DNA from: Chitinophagales bacterium
GTDB lineage: Bacteria; Bacteroidota; Bacteroidia; Chitinophagales; Chitinophagaceae
DNA: 64,000 bases
Assembly (NCBI GenBank): GCA_025353485.1
Contig: JANXQO010000143.1
Span: forward strand, 1-64,000
Reading direction: 5' to 3'
Part shown: in pieces, positions 52,987-64,000 of the stretch
How positions within the stretch are numbered: the stretch's first letter is position 1
How the letters are laid out: each line of letters opens with the position of its first letter
Program-made: the position numbers and the translations under genes
Notes under the pieces: model-generated
What the model saw: only the letters and a program-made list of their open reading frames with translations
Databases searched by the model: none
Told to the model about the DNA's origin: nothing

Positions 52987-53463
52987 TGCACCCGGAGTTA
53001 TTCTTGTTGAAGCCCTTCGGGCTTTTAGTGGTTGGCAAAATAATATTTGTGCCTTTAAATTATTTCGTGTTGTGGCCTTCCTCTAAAAAATTTTGATCCG
53101 GTAACCATCGGATTAAATAGCCTGCATAAAACTTTTACCTGTAAAATGTTTTTGCCCAAGAGAAAAAAATTAGCCCGATGGGCTTTACTATCAATAACTG
53201 CTGGCGCAACCAGCTGACATAACATAATGATGAACTACAACCCCGAAGGGGTTGAATGTGAGTGACCGCAGGTGCAGCCTGCGGATGGGGCACTGAGCAA
53301 GGCTCAACCCTGAAGGGGTTGAAAGTGAAATGCACAATTAAGATACTGCTATAACTTTGATCGAAGCACTAAAATTCAACCACTTCGTGGTTGAGGGCAT
53401 TGGTGTAGTTGTTGTACTCCTGGTTGCACCCGGAGTTATGGGGATTGAAGCCCTTTGGGCTTG
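52987..53463 (+). repeat. REP-like hairpin array with terminal direct repeats
   Basis: Two direct repeats of the form TTGCACCCGGAGTTAT, a 5-6 bp gap, then TTGAAGCCCTTCGGGCTT (second copy TTTGGGC) lie at 52987-53026 and 53424-53463. Between them are smaller hairpins with central GAAGG, TTCG or GATG loops. The group lies immediately upstream of a Y1 transposase, as REP sequences do for their transposase. Confidence 0.75.
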
Positions 53464-53523
53464 ACGCATTCATGCTATGAGATGTTCTATAGAATTATTA
53501 TGTTGCAATCAAAACATATTATT

Positions 53524-53970
53524 ATGAGCACTTATCGACAAATCTTTTATCAAATTGTATTCGGTACAAAACATCGTAAGCCAACACTTGCAAGAGCGCA
53601 TGATGAAGAATTATATAAATACATTTCTGGTATTATAAAAAAGAAAAACTGCAAACTGTATCGCATCAATGGAATTGAAGATCATATTCACATCATGTCT
53701 GATCTGCATCCATCTGTCTGTCTTAGTGATTATGTAAAAGATATAAAGGTAGCCAGCAGTTTATGGATGAAAGAATGTGGCAAGTTTCCTGACTTTGAAG
53801 GATGGCAGGATGGGTATGGAGCATTTACTTATTCAATCAGGGAGAAGGATATGATAATTAATTACATTAAAAAACAAAAAGAACATCATAAGGTTGAAAA
53901 ATTTTATGATGAATATAAACGGTTGCTGATTGAAAACGATATTGAGTTTGATGAGAAATATTTATTATAG
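53524..53970 (+). CDS. REP-associated Y1 (IS200/IS605-like) transposase
   Basis: Single-strand HUH endonuclease of 148 aa from ATG 53524 (MSTYRQIFYQIVFGTKHRKPTL). The HUH motif is in GIEDHIHIMSDL, and the catalytic Tyr lies in the helix IINYIKKQKEHH. Size and start fit the TnpA/RAYT group. The preceding 500 bp hold an array of GAAGGGG-type hairpins, and the direct repeats flanking them end close to the gene, as expected for a REP-associated transposase (RAYT). An in-frame start upstream at 53455 would read through the repeat. It is convergent with the lysoplasmalogenase gene. Confidence 0.88.
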   Translation: MSTYRQIFYQIVFGTKHRKPTLARAHDEELYKYISGIIKKKNCKLYRINGIEDHIHIMSDLHPSVCLSDYVKDIKVASSLWMKECGKFPDFEGWQDGYGAFTYSIREKDMIINYIKKQKEHHKVEKFYDEYKRLLIENDIEFDEKYLL

Positions 53971-56817: not shown

Positions 56818-56998
56818 ACATGGATCTTTGCAATCAATTTTGTGTTACTTCTACAATCGGTAACATAATATATTTATAATCATAACCAATGTGGTAAAGG
56901 TTTTAGAGCAAATCCAATTACGTTCCCCAACAATTTTCCGGTACCTCCATATTCTAAAATCACTTTGATTTTTCATGCGATTTTTAAAATGTCCGGCT

Positions 56999-57006
56999 TA
57001 TCTTTG
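56999..57006 (+). promoter_or_regulatory. TAnnTTTG -7 element of the cys operon
   Basis: TAtcTTTG stands 29 bp before the ATG of the Cys-rich leader. Transcription would start about 57012-57015, so the leader lies near the mRNA 5' end. No ideal -33 TTG was found (nearest at 56965-56967, too far). Confidence 0.5.
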
Positions 57007-57035
57007 GCTAAACGGAAACAAAATATACAAATAAA

Positions 57036-57101
57036 ATGAAGTTTCTTTCTTCCATACTGTATATGTGCACTCCCTGCAATTGTATGTGTTGTTGTTGCTA
57101 A
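57036..57101 (+). CDS. putative cysteine-sensing leader peptide
   Basis: Reading frame of 21 codons: MKFLSSILYM, then C-T-P-C-N-C-M-C-C-C-C, then TAA. Cys occupies residues 11, 14, 16 and 18-21, so seven of the last eleven codons are Cys and four stand directly before the stop. It is placed about 25 nt after the likely transcription start and 105 nt before cysH. The following 59 nt (57102-57160) contain 19 C and only 2 G, resembling a Rho-loading region, and I see no intrinsic terminator. A ribosome slowed at the Cys codons would keep Rho or an inhibitory fold off this RNA when cysteine is scarce. Regulation by Cys-rich upstream frames is known in mycobacteria. The low-complexity TGTTGT run could also be chance; conservation would decide. 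Confidence 0.6.
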   Translation: MKFLSSILYMCTPCNCMCCCC

Positions 57102-57160
57102 TACACTAACACTATCACAACCGTTTCCATTCCCCGCCATTATTTTTCAATTTCTCTTAT
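57102..57160 (+). promoter_or_regulatory. C-rich, G-poor leader segment (rut-like)
   Basis: Fifty-nine nucleotides with 19 C and 2 G lie between the leader-peptide stop codon and cysH. Such unstructured C-over-G RNA is where Rho binds. No hairpin with a T run is seen here. Confidence 0.4.
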
Positions 57161-57205
57161 CGCCGGCAAAAATTTAATAACATGTTTCTCACGATAAAAA
57201 ACAAA

Positions 57206-57904
57206 ATGTCTCAAATCAAAATTCAGGCAAATGTTTTAAGCATTGATGAGATGTTAAAATATTTATCAGATACATTTAAAGATGAAGTTACCTTCTCAAG
57301 CAGTTTTAGTAACGAGGATCAATTGATTGCTGATAAGATATTACGGAACAATTTACCCATTAACATTTTCACTTTAGATACAGGCAGGCTTTTTCCTGAA
57401 ACATATTCCCTTTGGAATGCTACCAATGAAAAATACAATACACACATAAAAGCTTTTTATCCTGATCACTCGTCACTCGAAAACTTTGTTGAAGAGAAAG
57501 GCCCTAACTCTTTTTATGAATCTGTAGAAAACAGGAAAGGCTGCTGCTACATTAGAAAAGTAGAACCGTTAAAAAGAGCATTGAAAGGAAACTCGGTCTG
57601 GATAACGGGTTTACGGGCTGAACATTCCATTGATCGCAATAATATGCCGCAGGTTGAATGGGATGAAACCAATAATGTTATAAAATATCACCCACTCCTT
57701 CACTGGACATTTGAAGAAGTAAAGCAATATATCTGCGAAAATAAAATACCCTATAATTCATTACACGATAAAGGTTTTGTAAGTATTGGATGTGCGCCAT
57801 GCACAAGAGCCATCAAACCTGGAGAAGATTTTAGAGCCGGCCGCTGGTGGTGGGAAGATGCAACAAAAAAAGAATGTGGCTTGCATGTTCACGTGGTTGA
57901 TTAA
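57206..57904 (+). CDS. cysH: adenylyl-sulfate (APS) reductase, CysH family
   Basis: Reduces activated sulfate to sulfite in the cytoplasm; 232 aa. The PP-loop-type N-terminal part (TFSSSFSNEDQLI) binds the nucleotide. Cys pairs for a [4Fe-4S] cluster are present (KGCCYIRK and IGCAPC), and the catalytic Cys is in the C-terminal KECGLH motif. The Fe-S cluster indicates reduction of APS directly, in agreement with the lack of an APS kinase gene in this operon. ATG 57206 starts the conserved protein; an in-frame ATG at 57182 gives eight more residues and remains possible. First structural gene, downstream of the Cys-rich leader. Confidence 0.93.
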   Translation: MSQIKIQANVLSIDEMLKYLSDTFKDEVTFSSSFSNEDQLIADKILRNNLPINIFTLDTGRLFPETYSLWNATNEKYNTHIKAFYPDHSSLENFVEEKGPNSFYESVENRKGCCYIRKVEPLKRALKGNSVWITGLRAEHSIDRNNMPQVEWDETNNVIKYHPLLHWTFEEVKQYICENKIPYNSLHDKGFVSIGCAPCTRAIKPGEDFRAGRWWWEDATKKECGLHVHVVD

Positions 57905-57930: not shown

Positions 57931-58839
57931 ATGAAGAAATATCATTTGGATTATTTAGGACAATTAGAATCGGAAGCCATTCATATTATGCGTGAAGTGG
58001 CCGGCCAGTTTGAGCGTCCTGCATTGTTGTTTAGCGGGGGCAAAGATTCTATAACGCTTGTTCATCTTGCATTAAAAGCATTTCGTCCGGGTAAGTTCCC
58101 TTTTCCATTGGTACATATTGATACAGGTCACAACTTTCCTGAAGCATTGAATTACAGGGATGCGATGGTTGAAAGACTGGGGGAAAAATTAATAGTACGC
58201 AAAGTTGAAGACACAATAAAAGAAAAAAATCTTACTGAACAGAAAGGAAAATTTGCAAGCCGTAATGCGCTGCAAACCTATACTCTGCTGGATATTATTG
58301 AAGAATTTAAATTTGATGCATTAATTGGTGGCGCAAGAAGAGACGAAGAAAAAGCAAGAGCAAAAGAGAGAATTTTTTCTGTGAGAGATGAGTTTGGTCA
58401 ATGGAATCCAAAACTTCAACGTCCGGAATTATGGAATACTTACAATGGAAAAATTCATAAGGGAGAAAACGTAAGAGCGTTCCCGATAAGCAACTGGACT
58501 GAGCTTGATGTATGGAATTATATACGCAGCGAAAAAATTGATCTGCCTTCTATTTATTTTTCTCATGAAAGAGAAGTGCTGAAGCATGAAGGGCAACTGG
58601 TCGCTGTCTCGGAGTTTATTACGCTTGAGCCAACTGATGTGATTCTGAAAAAGAGAGTGCGTTACCGTACCGTTGGTGATATGACCTGTACAGCAGCAGT
58701 GGAATCAAACGCAACAAAAATTGACGATATAATCAACGAAATTATTGCAACAAAGACAAGTGAAAGAGGCGAAACAAGAATTGATGACAGGGTTTCTGAA
58801 GCAGCGATGGAAGACAGGAAGAAGGGAGGATATTTTTAG
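57931..58839 (+). CDS. cysD: sulfate adenylyltransferase subunit 2
   Basis: ATP sulfurylase catalytic subunit of 302 aa, converting sulfate and ATP to APS. The PP-loop is in LLFSGGKDSITL, and the family segments HIDTGHNFPEAL, GGARRDEEKARAKER and the C-terminal RYRTVGDMTCT are intact. It lies 26 bp after cysH and is normally a heterodimer with the GTPase CysN, the next gene, but here a 122-bp spacer with an inverted repeat lies between them. Confidence 0.97.
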   Translation: MKKYHLDYLGQLESEAIHIMREVAGQFERPALLFSGGKDSITLVHLALKAFRPGKFPFPLVHIDTGHNFPEALNYRDAMVERLGEKLIVRKVEDTIKEKNLTEQKGKFASRNALQTYTLLDIIEEFKFDALIGGARRDEEKARAKERIFSVRDEFGQWNPKLQRPELWNTYNGKIHKGENVRAFPISNWTELDVWNYIRSEKIDLPSIYFSHEREVLKHEGQLVAVSEFITLEPTDVILKKRVRYRTVGDMTCTAAVESNATKIDDIINEIIATKTSERGETRIDDRVSEAAMEDRKKGGYF

Positions 58840-58961: not shown

Positions 58962-60203
58962 ATGGATATTTTAAGATTTATAACAGCAGGCAGTGTGGAT
59001 GATGGCAAAAGCACTTTGATCGGCAGATTATTGTACGACAGTAAATCGATCCTGATCGATCAACTGGAAGCAATTGAAAAACAAAGTAAGAATAAAGAAG
59101 ACGGCGAGATTGATCTTGCTTTGCTTACTGATGGCTTGCGGGCTGAAAGAGAGCAGGGCATTACGATTGACGTTGCATATAAATATTTTTCAACACCAAA
59201 ACGTAAGTTTATTATTGCGGATGCACCGGGGCATATTCAGTACACCCGTAACATGGTCACGGGTGCATCAAACTCAGAGCTGGCAATCATTTTAGTGGAC
59301 GCAAGAAATGGCGTGGTTGAACAAACCCGCCGTCATTCTATCATTACTTCGTTGCTCAATATTCCGCATGTTGTTGTAGCAATAAATAAAATGGACCTGG
59401 TAAATTATTCTGAAGATGTTTACAACAACATTGTAATTGATTTTGAAAAAGTGGCCAGGTCACTTGGATTAAAAGATGTAAAATATATTCCTATCAGTGC
59501 TTTGGATGGCGACAACATTGTTGATAAATCAGAAAATTTTTCATGGTATAATGGTGAATCTCTTTTGCACCACCTGGAAAATATTGAACTGGACTCTGAT
59601 ATTAATCTTACAGATGCAAGGTTTTCTGTTCAATATATTATTCGTCCACAAGCCTTAAAGCTACACGATTACCGAGGTTATGCAGGTAAGGTGATCAGTG
59701 GTATTTATAAGAAAGGAGATAAAGTTATTGTTCAACCTTCGGGAATTGAAACAACCATTAAAGCCATTGAAATTGGCGGCGAAGAAGTTGATGAAGCATA
59801 CGCATTGCAAAGTGTTGTGCTGCACCTTGAAGATAATATTGATGTAAGCCGTGGCGATATGATTGTTCACCGCGATAATCAACCTGCAACTGAAAATGAA
59901 TTTGAAGTACTGCTTTGCTGGATGGGAAATAAACCATTAGTGCCGGGTAATAAATATTTTTTCCAGATAAACAGCCGTGTTGTAAAAAGTGTTGTGAAGG
60001 ATATTGAATACAAGTTGGATGTAAACACGTTGCAAAAAAATTATTCGCTGGAGAAAGCGGAGTTGAATGATATTATAAAAGCAACAATTAAAACTGCCTC
60101 ACCAATTGCATTTGATTCTTATAAAAAATTAAGACAAAACGGTGGAGCTATTTTGATTGATGAAACAAGCTGTGTTACGGTGGGGGCTTGTATGATTCAA
60201 TAA
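58962..60203 (+). CDS. cysN: sulfate adenylyltransferase subunit 1 (GTPase)
   Basis: GTPase that drives ATP sulfurylase, 413 aa. G motifs are G1 AGSVDDGKST, switch region DGLRAEREQGITIDVAY, G3 DAPGH and G4 NKMD. The length matches a stand-alone CysN without a fused APS kinase (CysC). The start codon directly follows the right arm of the inverted repeat, leaving no ordinary Shine-Dalgarno region, so initiation may depend on repeat folding or on weak ribosome binding as usual in this phylum. Confidence 0.96.
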   Translation: MDILRFITAGSVDDGKSTLIGRLLYDSKSILIDQLEAIEKQSKNKEDGEIDLALLTDGLRAEREQGITIDVAYKYFSTPKRKFIIADAPGHIQYTRNMVTGASNSELAIILVDARNGVVEQTRRHSIITSLLNIPHVVVAINKMDLVNYSEDVYNNIVIDFEKVARSLGLKDVKYIPISALDGDNIVDKSENFSWYNGESLLHHLENIELDSDINLTDARFSVQYIIRPQALKLHDYRGYAGKVISGIYKKGDKVIVQPSGIETTIKAIEIGGEEVDEAYALQSVVLHLEDNIDVSRGDMIVHRDNQPATENEFEVLLCWMGNKPLVPGNKYFFQINSRVVKSVVKDIEYKLDVNTLQKNYSLEKAELNDIIKATIKTASPIAFDSYKKLRQNGGAILIDETSCVTVGACMIQ

Positions 60204-60294: not shown

Positions 60295-61152
60295 ATGAAT
60301 TTAAATAACAACATACAAAAAGGCAAAGTAATTCTTGCAGGTGCAGGCCCGGGTGATCCGGAACTAATTACTGTGAAGGTTGCACGCTACCTTCAATTGG
60401 CTGATGTTGTATTAACTGACCGCCTGGTGAGTGAAGAAATTTTAAATACGTATGTTAAAAAAGATGCAGAAATAATCCGTGTTGGAAAACAATGCCGGCG
60501 GGGAATTTCAACACCACAAAAAACGATCAATGAACTGATAGTTGAATATGCTTTGCAAAACAAATTGGTGGTGCGTTTAAAAGGTGGAGACGTTTCTATT
60601 TTTTCCAATATCATGGATGAATTAGAAACCCTTGTGGCAAATAATATTCCTTATGAGATTGTACCGGGAGTTACGGCAGCTTTAGGTGCGGCTGCAACGG
60701 CAGGTATTCCGCTTACAGCAAGAGGATACTCAACAGCAGTAAGGTTTTTAACGTACTACAAATCTGATATTGTTACGGAAGAATATTGGAAGGAGTTGGC
60801 GAATACGGATGATACATTAATATTTTATATGTCATCAGAAACATTAGATATAGTTGTACAAAAACTTACGGCAAATAATATTGCCAGCGATAAATTGCTT
60901 GCAGTAATTGAGCAGGCAACTACGCCATTGCAAAAAGTGCATACCTGCAATTTGTATGAGTATGATAAAAAATTAAAAGATCAACCATTCATTTCACCAT
61001 CGCTTGTAATCATAGGAAAAGTTGTATCGCTTCACAAAGAGTTTGCATGGCTTGCAAACAGCAACAGCAGCGGATATTATTTTAAACCTATGACGAGCCC
61101 GATCATTGCCATTGCTAATAATCAAAATAAAAAACATGTTAGCAGAGCATAA
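60295..61152 (+). CDS. cobA: uroporphyrinogen-III C-methyltransferase
   Basis: SAM-dependent methyltransferase of 285 aa making precorrin-2, the precursor of sirohaem, the prosthetic group of sulfite reductase encoded next. Signatures are VILAGAGPGDPELITVKVARYLQLADVVLTDRLV, RLKGGDVSIFSN and PGVTAALGAAATAGIPLTARGYS. It lacks the dehydrogenase/chelatase domain of CysG, so that step must be elsewhere. ATG 60295 is right: an upstream ATG at 60226 lies in the palindromic repeat. Its end overlaps cysJ by 17 bp. Confidence 0.95.
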   Translation: MNLNNNIQKGKVILAGAGPGDPELITVKVARYLQLADVVLTDRLVSEEILNTYVKKDAEIIRVGKQCRRGISTPQKTINELIVEYALQNKLVVRLKGGDVSIFSNIMDELETLVANNIPYEIVPGVTAALGAAATAGIPLTARGYSTAVRFLTYYKSDIVTEEYWKELANTDDTLIFYMSSETLDIVVQKLTANNIASDKLLAVIEQATTPLQKVHTCNLYEYDKKLKDQPFISPSLVIIGKVVSLHKEFAWLANSNSSGYYFKPMTSPIIAIANNQNKKHVSRA

Positions 61153-62833
61153 ATTAAAAATATTTGAAGATTTTTTAAAGGGATTATCCGATGATGAACT
61201 CACCTGGGTGAAAAGTTACCTTAATGGTGTTGTATCAAAAACTTCTGAAAAAAATGAAGCCTTTGTTTTAAAACCGGCAGTTAATAAAATAACCATCACT
61301 TACGGAACTGAAACAGGTAACTCAAAAAAAATAGCCACCGATTTTGCCACAAAAGCAAAGAAGAGCGGAATTAATGTAAAGCTTGTAAGTCTTGACCAGT
61401 ACCGCTTAAACGATCTTACCAAAGAAGAATATTTTTTTACTGTAGTCAGCACTCACGGTGATGGCGAACCACCTGCTGCCACTAAAAAATTTTACGATCA
61501 TATACATAATAACGGTTTCAGGTTTGATAAATTAAAATACAGTGTACTTGCATTGGGAGATACTTCCTACCCTTTGTTTTGTAAAACCGGAGAAGATATA
61601 GATGAACAACTAAACAGGCTTGGCGGTAACCGGATTGCACCACTAAGAAAATGCGATCTTGAATTTGATGAAGACGTAAATCAGTGGGTGGAAAAAGTTT
61701 TTCAAACATTGAGTACTTCTTCTCAAACAGAAATTGTTACTACTGCTGCGCCTGCAGAAGTAAAAAAAACTACAACTAAAAAATCATATACTGGTTCTGT
61801 GTTGTCAAATATTAATCTGAATGATAAAGGTTCAAACAAAGAAATTTTTCACATTGAGCTTGTGGTTGATGAGCCTGAATATGAACCGGGTGATTCTATA
61901 GGAATTGTTCCTGAAAATTTAAATGCTGTTGTTGAAGAAGTAATAGCATTATCAGGAATTGACAGGAATAAAGAAATTGAATACAGAGATGAATGGTTCA
62001 CTGTTTTTGGACTGTTGAAAAAGAGAGTAAACATTATACAAATTGCTCCTTCTGTTGTAAAAAAATATGCAGCATTGGTTGGTCATCAAATACCTGATGG
62101 CAAGATTGATCTTACAAATCTTTTGAAAGTTTATCCGGTAAAAGATAGTACACAATTTGAAGAAGTATTAACTCTTCTCAATCCAATTGCTCCGAGGCTT
62201 TATACAATTACCTCTTCACCTGAAGCGCATAGTGGAGAAGTTCATCTTACAGTTGAGAAAGATGAATTTCATGTGAATGATGAATTAAAATTTGGTTTGT
62301 GTTCAGAATATTTAGGTGAAATAAAAATTGATAATAAACTTAAATTTTTTGTTCAGAAAAATAAACGTTTCAGATTGCCTGCTGATGATAAGGATATAAT
62401 TATGATCGGCCCGGGAACCGGGATTGCTGCGTTCCGTTCGTTTCTTTCAGAGAGAGATTCGAAAGGTGCATCAGGAAAAAACTGGTTGTTTTTTGGTGAA
62501 CAATATTTTGCAACCGATTTTCTTTACCAAACCGAAATACAGAACTGGAGCGACATTGGCGTGCTTACAAAAGTAAATGTTGCTTTTTCTCATGACCGGG
62601 AAGAAAGAGTTTTTGTTCATCATAAAATGTTGGAATATGCTGCTGAATTGTATGACTGGATCGAACAAGGCGCTTATGTATATGTGTGCGGACAAAAAGA
62701 TCCGATGAGTGTACTGGTTGAAAATACGTTGCTCCAAATTATTGAGGAGTATGGAAATAAATCAAAAGAAGAAGCGAAGAAATATTTTGATGAGTTGAAA
62801 GATGGAGGAAGATATTCTAAGGATGTGTATTAA
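61136..62833 (+). CDS. cysJ: sulfite reductase (NADPH) flavoprotein subunit
   Basis: Electron-transfer subunit of assimilatory sulfite reductase, 565 aa: flavodoxin-like FMN domain (about 55-200; TYGTETGNSKKIATDFA, STHGDGEPPAAT, ALGDTSYPLFC), FAD domain (about 215-420; EYEPGDSIGI, RLYTITSSP) and NADPH domain (about 420-565; MIGPGTGIAAFRSFL, GEQYFATDFLY, YVYVCGQKDPM, GRYSKDVY at the end). ATG 61136 overlaps cobA, indicating coupled translation. It has the usual length for CysJ. Confidence 0.96.
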   Translation: MLAEHKLKIFEDFLKGLSDDELTWVKSYLNGVVSKTSEKNEAFVLKPAVNKITITYGTETGNSKKIATDFATKAKKSGINVKLVSLDQYRLNDLTKEEYFFTVVSTHGDGEPPAATKKFYDHIHNNGFRFDKLKYSVLALGDTSYPLFCKTGEDIDEQLNRLGGNRIAPLRKCDLEFDEDVNQWVEKVFQTLSTSSQTEIVTTAAPAEVKKTTTKKSYTGSVLSNINLNDKGSNKEIFHIELVVDEPEYEPGDSIGIVPENLNAVVEEVIALSGIDRNKEIEYRDEWFTVFGLLKKRVNIIQIAPSVVKKYAALVGHQIPDGKIDLTNLLKVYPVKDSTQFEEVLTLLNPIAPRLYTITSSPEAHSGEVHLTVEKDEFHVNDELKFGLCSEYLGEIKIDNKLKFFVQKNKRFRLPADDKDIIMIGPGTGIAAFRSFLSERDSKGASGKNWLFFGEQYFATDFLYQTEIQNWSDIGVLTKVNVAFSHDREERVFVHHKMLEYAAELYDWIEQGAYVYVCGQKDPMSVLVENTLLQIIEEYGNKSKEEAKKYFDELKDGGRYSKDVY

Positions 62834-63014
62834 AGCCCCCTATCCCCTGAAGGGGAAACTCAGAATGAAAGTTTTCTTGATTAACATAACACCTTAATTA
62901 AGAAAAGGATTTAAAAAAGTTTTTATATGAAGAGTAATAATTAAAAAATGGAAAATAGTTTTAATAAACAAGTGGACAATAAACCTGAGTTCCCCCTTCG
63001 GGGGACAGGGGGCT
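62833..63014. repeat. inverted-repeat element spanning the cysJ-cysI junction
   Basis: AAGCCCCCTATCCCCTGAAG (62833-62862, with GGGAAACTCAG) and inverted TGAGTTCCCCCTTCGGGGGA plus CAGGGGGCT (62986-63014) flank about 120 bp. It is the same family as 58840-58961 and has a similar layout. The cysI start codon (62948) lies within it. Confidence 0.82.
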
Positions 63015-64000
63015 TATCATCAATCGAAAAAATAAAAATAAACAGTGACGGTTTGCGTGGAACTATCAAAGAAAGTTTGAGCGATGAACTTACCGGTGCC
63101 ATTCGTGAAGATGACCAGGCGCTGATAAAATTTCATGGCATGTACCAGCAGGACGACCGTGACCGTCGTGAAGAAAGAGCAGAAAAAAAACTTGACAGGC
63201 TGTATAGTTTTATGATTCGCTTACGCTTGCCGGGTGGTTTTTTATTGCCTGAACAATGGATAGCAATGCAGGAGATCGCAGGAGAAAATTCTACCGGGGT
63301 TATAAAAATTACAACAAGACAAACGATACAACTACATGGCATTTTTAAATCGAAAATAAAACCAACAATAAAAGCATTCAATGCTGCAAAGCTTGATTCC
63401 ATCGCTACCTGCGGGGATATTAACCGGAATGTTTTATGCAGTTCTAATCCGAAACAATCTCCCATTCATCAGCAAATTTTTTCTTACGCAGGAAAGATAA
63501 GTGAGATTCTGATGCCTAAAACAAAAGCGTATTATGAGATATGGCTTGATGAAGAAAAAATTATTGATAAGAAAGATGAAGAAGATCCCCTTTACCAGGA
63601 CAGGTACATGCCCCGTAAATTTAAAATTGCCATCGCCATTCCGCCAAACAATGATATAGATGTTTTTGGAAATGATATTGGGCTGATCGCCATTATTGAA
63701 AATGAAAAATTATCGGGCTTTAATATTGCCATCGGTGGTGGATTATCAACCACTCACGGTAACGCTGAAACATATGCAAGGCTCGCAACAGTGATTGGTT
63801 TTGTTGACAGTGAAGAGAAAACGTTGAAAGCCATTTACGAGATACTAACCGTTCAAAGAGATTATGGAAACCGCAGCGACAGGAAACTTGCACGGTTAAA
63901 ATATACCCTTGACAGGTTAGGAATTGATTGGTACAAAAGTGAAGTCGAGAAGCGTGTAGGTTTTAAGTTGGAGGAAGCAAAGCCATTCACATTCACCAGC
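62948..64000 (+). CDS. cysI: sulfite reductase haemoprotein subunit, 3' end outside window
   Basis: Open to the end of the window, 351 codons visible. Sulfite/nitrite reductase ferredoxin-like half-domain signs are KFHGMYQQDDRDRREERAEK, YSFMIRLRLPGG and TTRQTIQLHGIFKSKIK. The [4Fe-4S]/sirohaem Cys motifs would lie downstream, outside the window. The first ~27 residues do not belong to the family: residues 14-23 (EFPLRGTGGL) come from the right arm of the inverted-repeat element, and conserved sequence begins at about IEKIKINSDGLRGTIKE. No later ATG before that point could start the protein, so it seems the element supplied its start region. Confidence 0.92.
   Translation, partial: MENSFNKQVDNKPEFPLRGTGGLSSIEKIKINSDGLRGTIKESLSDELTGAIREDDQALIKFHGMYQQDDRDRREERAEKKLDRLYSFMIRLRLPGGFLLPEQWIAMQEIAGENSTGVIKITTRQTIQLHGIFKSKIKPTIKAFNAAKLDSIATCGDINRNVLCSSNPKQSPIHQQIFSYAGKISEILMPKTKAYYEIWLDEEKIIDKKDEEDPLYQDRYMPRKFKIAIAIPPNNDIDVFGNDIGLIAIIENEKLSGFNIAIGGGLSTTHGNAETYARLATVIGFVDSEEKTLKAIYEILTVQRDYGNRSDRKLARLKYTLDRLGIDWYKSEVEKRVGFKLEEAKPFTFTS

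Follow-up and report, generated by a model that had tools for sequence, protein, structure and literature searches.

A cysteine-codon leader ORF ahead of a sulfate assimilation operon in Bacteroidota: a candidate cysteine sensor with a possible Rho-dependent output

We analysed a 64,000-nt stretch of DNA (the window) from a genome of 3.8 Mb in 189 contigs, in which a short ORF is followed by a sulfate assimilation operon with the gene order cysH-cysD-cysN-cobA-cysJ-cysI (Table 1). As a preliminary description of this DNA had stated, the ORF has 21 codons, seven of which are Cys codons, and the final four of these stand in a row directly before TAA. A recount of the 59 nt past the stop gave the composition it had reported, and a terminator search confirmed its statement that the window has no intrinsic terminator, so that such an element is ruled out here. 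The start of cysH is most likely at 57182 and not at 57206, since same-genus relatives use the matching ATG and several of them have no second ATG. Taking 57182 as the start, 80 nt separate the leader stop from cysH. The start at 57206 was used in most analyses; the energy of opening the start was computed for both positions, and the test with shuffled start regions used 57182.

Table 1. Features of the leader region and the downstream operon in the window
Feature	Position	Strand	Basis or remark
Probable -7 promoter element, TATCTTTG	56999..57006	+	seen in sequence
Cys-codon leader ORF, MKFLSSILYMCTPCNCMCCCC	57036..57101	+	21 codons and TAA, read from sequence
Predicted weak hairpin, Cys codons 57087-57095 with post-stop bases 57103-57111	57087..57111	+	predicted fold
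C-rich, G-poor tract, candidate Rho-loading region	57102..57160	+	19 C, 2 G
cysH, (phospho)adenylyl-sulfate reductase, first operon gene	57182..57904	+	start codon by comparison
cysD	57931..58839	+	NCBIfam CysD
cysN	58962..60203	+	NCBIfam CysN
cobA/cysG-type uroporphyrinogen-III C-methyltransferase	60295..61152	+	profile match
cysJ-like sulfite reductase flavoprotein	61136..62833	+	best NCBIfam model cysJ, below cut-off; Pfam domains
Sulfite reductase hemoprotein (cysI-like)	62948..64000	+	extends past window end

The box TATCTTTG, which has the form of the Bacteroidota-type -7 motif, lies 29 nt 5′ of the leader ATG, and this distance would argue against a leaderless mRNA; no clear -33 element was seen in the window. 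Judging from the -7 box, the 5′ UTR of the leader mRNA would be about 20–25 nt, and with the mRNA start placed in this way the codons for the end product of the operon lie near the 5′ end of its mRNA, as they do in the leader-peptide class. Paired bases of the predicted hairpin between Cys codons and post-stop bases had base-pair probabilities of 0.86–0.97; across loci, pairing of this kind showed only a mild excess over shuffled sequences (6 of 49 at p≤0.05), and the predicted fold of the leader RNA as a whole was ordinary (z -0.64). No Rfam family matched the leader at gathering score in the seven loci searched, which rules out a known RNA of this kind there. Elsewhere in the window, the ORF at 53455-53970 resembles, by reading, a REP-associated tyrosine (IS200-like) transposase.

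CysH was found in 12 of 20 same-genus genomes, that of the window included, and 11 of these loci were readable, the twelfth being truncated by a contig end. Nine of the 11 loci (window counted) carry a Cys-rich short ORF of 20–22 codons that ends in Cys, such as MKFFSSIMYMCTPCNCMCCCC, MKSFFPLINMCNCGNSMPCCC and MMLCTSLMYMCPNRYSMHCCCC, and two of the nine leaders (G814 and G816) terminate in only two Cys. The two loci without a Cys ORF have a more distant cysH (54–55% identity). Between the window and G806, 60 of 66 bases of the leader ORF are identical, and the differences comprise two replacement changes, three silent changes and one change from stop to stop; there is no indel within the ORF, and both of its flanks have indels. 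Conservation at the genus level is mainly that of the start, the Met at position 17 and the Cys residues.

In the family, 95 of 147 genomes had CysH matches, and we counted 88 loci with at least 54% CysH identity, again including the window. The seven genomes left out had distant matches (six, at 32–34% identity) or a match at E 2e-4 (one); a second weak match in G124 and L194, a false match inside a gene, were excluded as well. Using as criterion an ATG-initiated ORF with at least three Cys among its last eight codons and an end 25–260 nt before cysH, we found a Cys ORF 5′ of cysH in 36 of the 88 loci. The preliminary description had made its reading depend on such an ORF upstream of cysH in close relatives, and the counts in genus and family bear it out. 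When the same scan was run for other residues, Leu gave seven loci and each remaining residue at most five, and at a stricter threshold of at least four in eight codons Cys gave 30 loci and Leu three. L008 and L176, with two Cys near the stop, fall below the criterion. Of the 52 loci without an ORF by this criterion, about 20 have a long same-strand frame that ends within 60 nt of cysH, so that cysH is probably not the first gene there; the absence of the ORF from the remaining ones counts against the leader reading.

Six further loci (L142, L151, L263, L264, L265 and L267) were added to the 36 family loci to give a set of 42. In 39 of the 42, a mixture of TGT and TGC codes for Cys, which indicates conservation of the amino acid and not of a DNA motif. 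Family-wide, little of the leader body is kept besides the Cys codons, whose number ranges from 3 to 9; codon identity and position are thus kept and the peptide body is not, as is found in the leader-peptide class. A TAnnTTTG box stands at most 90 nt 5′ of the short ORF in 37 of the 42 loci, with a median distance of 28 nt from box to ATG.

Where cysH is not the first gene, the Cys ORF may precede whichever gene heads the operon, be it metY, sulfite reductase, cobA or cysJ. It stands before metY (O-acetylhomoserine sulfhydrylase) in L226, before a cysJ-type flavoprotein in L235, before a nitrite/sulfite-reductase-type protein in L272, L275 and L280, before a TP-methylase in L276 and L283, and before cysH itself in L290; the first-gene families were profile-tested for L226, L235, L272 and L276 and assigned by N-terminus likeness for the others. 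Cys ORFs before a first gene other than cysH were seen in 2 of 20 loci in one sample and 5 of 27 in another. As a control, we collected from the window and 47 loci 244 gene starts preceded by 60 nt or more of free sequence, 20 of these 48 sources being family loci chosen mainly for a cysH without adjoining ORF. A Cys ORF was present at 6 of 60 sulfur-type genes vs none of 184 others (Fisher p=1.8e-4), and at 5 of 57 vs none of 160 when the window was excluded. The six genes are metY, two sulfite reductases, a TP-methylase and two cysH, one of which is that of the window. Under a looser criterion, L226, L284 and L297 each had one Cys ORF that does not precede a sulfur gene. These ORFs, the small share of sulfur-type genes with a Cys ORF (6 of 60) and the choice of sources weigh against the leader reading. 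In L284, a short ORF at -7682 to -7592 relative to cysH contains several Asn and Thr codons and precedes a gene that by reading alone is thrA-like; it is a possible threonine leader.

CysH matches at E≤1e-40 were present in 42 of 217 genomes of the class sample and 107 of 296 of the phylum sample, and the class, phylum and family samples overlap. Several further families contain Cys ORFs (L151, L263-L265, L267, L272, L275, L276, L280, L283, L290, L353-L355 and L362). In one set from the phylum sample they occur in 4 of 31 loci (L353-L355 and L362), with five other ORFs outside this count, and the gene after the Cys ORF of L353 encodes a solute-binding protein. Most loci in the order, class and phylum samples had no Cys ORF in the stretch available, and none was found at 70 CysH loci of other phyla (72 less two with short flanks). 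In L372 and L382 (G801:C7), a single open frame of 491 codons holds two head-to-tail CysH copies.

In the genus of G450 (Flavobacterium), a CysH match was present in 37 of 61 genomes, and 30 loci were read. A Cys ORF and an intrinsic terminator together precede cysH in five of the 30 and also in Flavobacterium soli (L038). These six loci have the organization of a classical trp-type attenuator, which is missing from 41 of the 42 loci described above, including the window; one of the 42 has a terminator candidate. In five of the six, two modules of Cys ORF and terminator are arranged in tandem, and in L266, L311, L313, L314 and L038 tandem attenuators were observed about 450 nt upstream of cysH. 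Each of the 11 modules has, within the ORF and 10–18 nt past the last Cys pair, a segment able to base-pair with the terminator's 5′ arm. Compared with 500 single-base shuffles, this antiterminator pairing was beaten by at most four in seven modules and by 17, 30, 32 and 46 in the other four. The predicted geometry is as expected of an attenuator: the antiterminator would stay free when the ribosome stalls at Cys codons and would be at least partly covered when it stands at the stop. Met codons adjoin the Cys codons in L266, L313 and L314 (MMMCMCC, CMMMMCCM). Among the other 25 Flavobacterium loci, 23 had no Cys ORF in the stretch read, and L318 and L324 had one each. Terminator candidates also occur in L272, L275 and L362, and none was found in L276, L283, L290 or L353-L355. 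A SAM-II riboswitch above gathering score was observed in one Flavobacterium on the other strand upstream of cysH (L312:1015-1074, minus strand).

A gene of the Rrf2 type is likely to serve as an alternative regulator in relatives. Genes like the Rrf2-like gene of L225, the only one tested against Pfam, lie upstream of or in the operon in 10 of 20 loci, and an operon-type Rrf2 is present in 98 of 147 family genomes. The genome of the window (G000, rated 100% complete) has no Rrf2 match, and 13 of 14 control genomes have one. Cys ORFs were found in 7 of 9 cysH genomes without an operon-type Rrf2 vs 31 of 79 with one (Fisher p=0.036), in a comparison that counts two near misses, takes presence from the match list and ignores kinship; that Rrf2-less family genomes more often carry the leader ORF is therefore suggestive only. 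In L028, L007, L027, L030 and others, a partial inverted repeat similar to CTACYNNNTTNGTAGACT recurs just past the TAnnTTTG box, at the expected transcription start of family sulfur operons; it is absent from the window and is possibly a repressor operator. CTAC..GTAGAC after the -7 box was considered as an Rrf2 operator and dropped, as the presence and absence of motif and Rrf2 gave no support (Fisher p=0.29); the window lacks both.

The region past the leader stop was compared for signs of how a sensor might act on the operon. RNA past the stop in the window is C-rich and G-poor, as in Rho-coupled leaders, and its C-G skew of 0.30 is the highest of the 42 loci. The 36 family loci have 24.2% C and 11.2% G past the stop, a skew of 0.130 vs 0.033 for the 60 nt directly 5′ of 47 other genes (p=1.9e-5). 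For the 42 loci the skew is 0.154 vs 0.023 in the 11 terminator-bearing modules (p=2e-4), a comparison that spans different genera, which makes base composition a confounder; both comparisons draw on other genomes with other base composition, and as a sign of a rut site the skew is weak. In the predicted fold the post-stop tract of the window is only partly open, its bases having a mean unpaired probability of 0.60, and rho is encoded in the genome of the window. A closing of the downstream start by the Cys segment, as in mycobacteria, was predicted to have no effect in the window, the opening energy going from 2.14 to 2.19 kcal/mol at 57182 and from 5.28 to 5.02 at 57206. With no terminator, no predicted opening of the cysH start by a ribosome on the Cys codons, a skewed post-stop RNA and a rho gene in the genome, Rho is our best guess for the effector here; given a cysteine sensor, we consider it somewhat favoured.

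Since the ORF is kept in place and in Cys identity, is tied to sulfur operons and has counterparts in the Flavobacterium attenuators, the sensor is well supported, and the ORF of the window is very probably, as far as its sequence allows a judgement, a cysteine-sensing leader of the sulfate operon. That so many relatives keep such an ORF in place suggests that the leader probably reports cysteine shortage through stalled ribosomes. Our main reading, to which we give a probability of roughly 0.55, is that a cis-acting cysteine sensor with Rho as output controls the operon. On this reading, the operon mRNA would carry the 21-codon ORF at its 5′ end and ribosomes would translate it. When Cys-tRNA is plentiful, the ribosome would reach the stop and leave, and the C-rich, G-poor RNA past the stop would be free for Rho to load and halt transcription before or early in cysH. 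With scarce Cys-tRNA, the ribosome would stall on the four last Cys codons and cover the stop and the beginning of the tract, and transcription would continue into cysHDN-cobA-cysJI. We infer translation of the ORF, stalling, the direction of the response and Rho as effector. The preliminary description had proposed a "cysteine-responsive, Rho-linked switch"; its cysteine-responsive leader is upheld by conservation, the sulfur tie and the Flavobacterium attenuators, and its Rho link did not gain in the same way, resting on the missing terminator, the tract and the rho gene.

The same sensor could have a translational output, in which pairing between the Cys segment and the cysH start would prevent initiation until a stalled ribosome opens the start. 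In 13 of the 42 loci, among them L007, L028, L182 and L186, predicted closure of the cysH start by the Cys segment exceeds that in all 15 shuffles, where about three loci were expected, and a paired test over all loci gave p=0.019; start sequestration in these 13, as modelled, points to translational control there. Mycobacterial polycysteine ORFs offer a functional precedent, as far as the available text describes them (PMC9031893). Against this, the opening energy in the window hardly shifts at either start, a polyCys probe pairs equally well with cysH starts lacking a short ORF (p=0.82) and is only marginally better at cysH starts than at other genes (p=0.06), and shuffled start regions gave 2 of 49 loci at p≤0.05, with 7 of the 49 starts placed at a fixed 90 nt. 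A general hairpin between polyCys and start was dropped, as these probe and shuffle tests showed weak or no excess, and no inverse relation of start sequestration to C-G skew was found over the 42 loci. We regard a translational output as unlikely for the window, and several output modes may coexist among loci.

A nascent-peptide arrest is far less probable. In the tna operon of E. coli, a ribosome stalled at the end of the TnaC leader masks Rho access just past the stop; TnaC senses free Trp through its nascent chain and conserved residues and induces a catabolic operon. A leader of this kind would bind free cysteine and arrest at its stop, and high cysteine would induce or modulate the operon. 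The Cys run directly ahead of the stop and the absent terminator would suit it. However, arrest peptides need conserved residues along their length, whereas the family keeps little but the Cys codons and the genus mainly the start, the Met at 17 and Cys, and a biosynthetic operon such as this one should not respond to its own product by induction. The TnaC analogy drawn in the preliminary description therefore fits only as a model of the output, the proposed masking of Rho access past the stop by a stalled ribosome, and fails as a model of the sensor, because little of the peptide body is kept beyond the genus, which fits stalling for lack of Cys-tRNA. There is a slim chance that the ORF encodes a functional Cys-rich micro-protein for metal or redox: seven of its 21 residues are Cys, but residues outside the Cys run diverge freely, the Cys number varies from 3 to 9, and the ORF precedes varied first genes of sulfur operons. 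A chance or repeat by-product is negligible and was ruled out by frames, shuffles, the control of 244 gene starts and conservation: TGYTGYTGYTRA does occur at 44 sites in the genome of the window, but 42 of them fall within stop-to-stop open frames of at least 90 codons (the other two being the leader ORF and a site without ATG in a short frame), 20,000 dinucleotide shuffles of intergenic region 56821-57205 (385 nt) gave no match to the leader ORF (an ATG ORF with six Cys in its last eight codons or a terminal run of four), and the genus conserves it with silent changes.

For polycysteine ORFs of mycobacteria, the model advanced by Canestrari in 2020 is said to be that the RBS or start is sequestered unless a ribosome stalls. 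These leaderless short ORFs use contiguous Cys codons to tune downstream genes to cysteine availability, according to the available parts of two reports (PMC9031893, PMC9094748). The likeness to the window lies in contiguous Cys codons ahead of genes that respond to cysteine there and probably do so here; the difference is that the window has an expected 5′ UTR of about 20–25 nt and no predicted start sequestration. Cys leaders themselves are already known in Actinobacteria, where candidates precede cys operons of Mycobacterium and Propionibacterium and cbs of Bifidobacterium; that study, in its accessible text, reports no terminators, suggests Rho as in tna and calls its own prediction weak (PMC1262725). 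Those candidates share with the window Cys codons near the stop, a sulfur operon 3′, no terminator and polypyrimidine motifs in between, whereas the present leaders belong to Bacteroidota, precede varied first genes and have Flavobacterium relatives with terminators. The uORFC-8-2 motif before cysS of Rhodobacterales, for which ribosome-mediated attenuation is proposed, likewise places tandem Cys codons upstream of a Cys-related gene, but it differs in a 3′ U run that fits an intrinsic terminator, in the gene cysS and in its alphaproteobacterial hosts (PMC8632094). Leader-peptide clues are reported before amino-acid operons of Flavobacterium psychrophilum in a study whose main text, as available, names cysteine only for a protease (PMC9723704). 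In the literature searched, which included few subscription papers, no description of a Cys leader in Bacteroidota was found.

Taken jointly, these observations allow a broader reading that we hold as tentative: a Cys-codon leader found throughout the phylum Bacteroidota may move with the heads of sulfur operons and may be read out through tandem terminators in Flavobacterium (with Met beside the Cys codons), through Rho in window-like lineages and through start sequestration in others, acting beside Rrf2 and in some genomes, including that of the window, as its sole local substitute. The literature searched has very little on how Bacteroidota control sulfate assimilation. If the reading is true, several families would have a codon-based cysteine sensor with interchangeable outputs and a tandem form, which would be a clear case of leader-peptide switches that change their effector in evolution and would give a simple reporter test of Rho-coupled amino-acid sensing at a biosynthetic operon.
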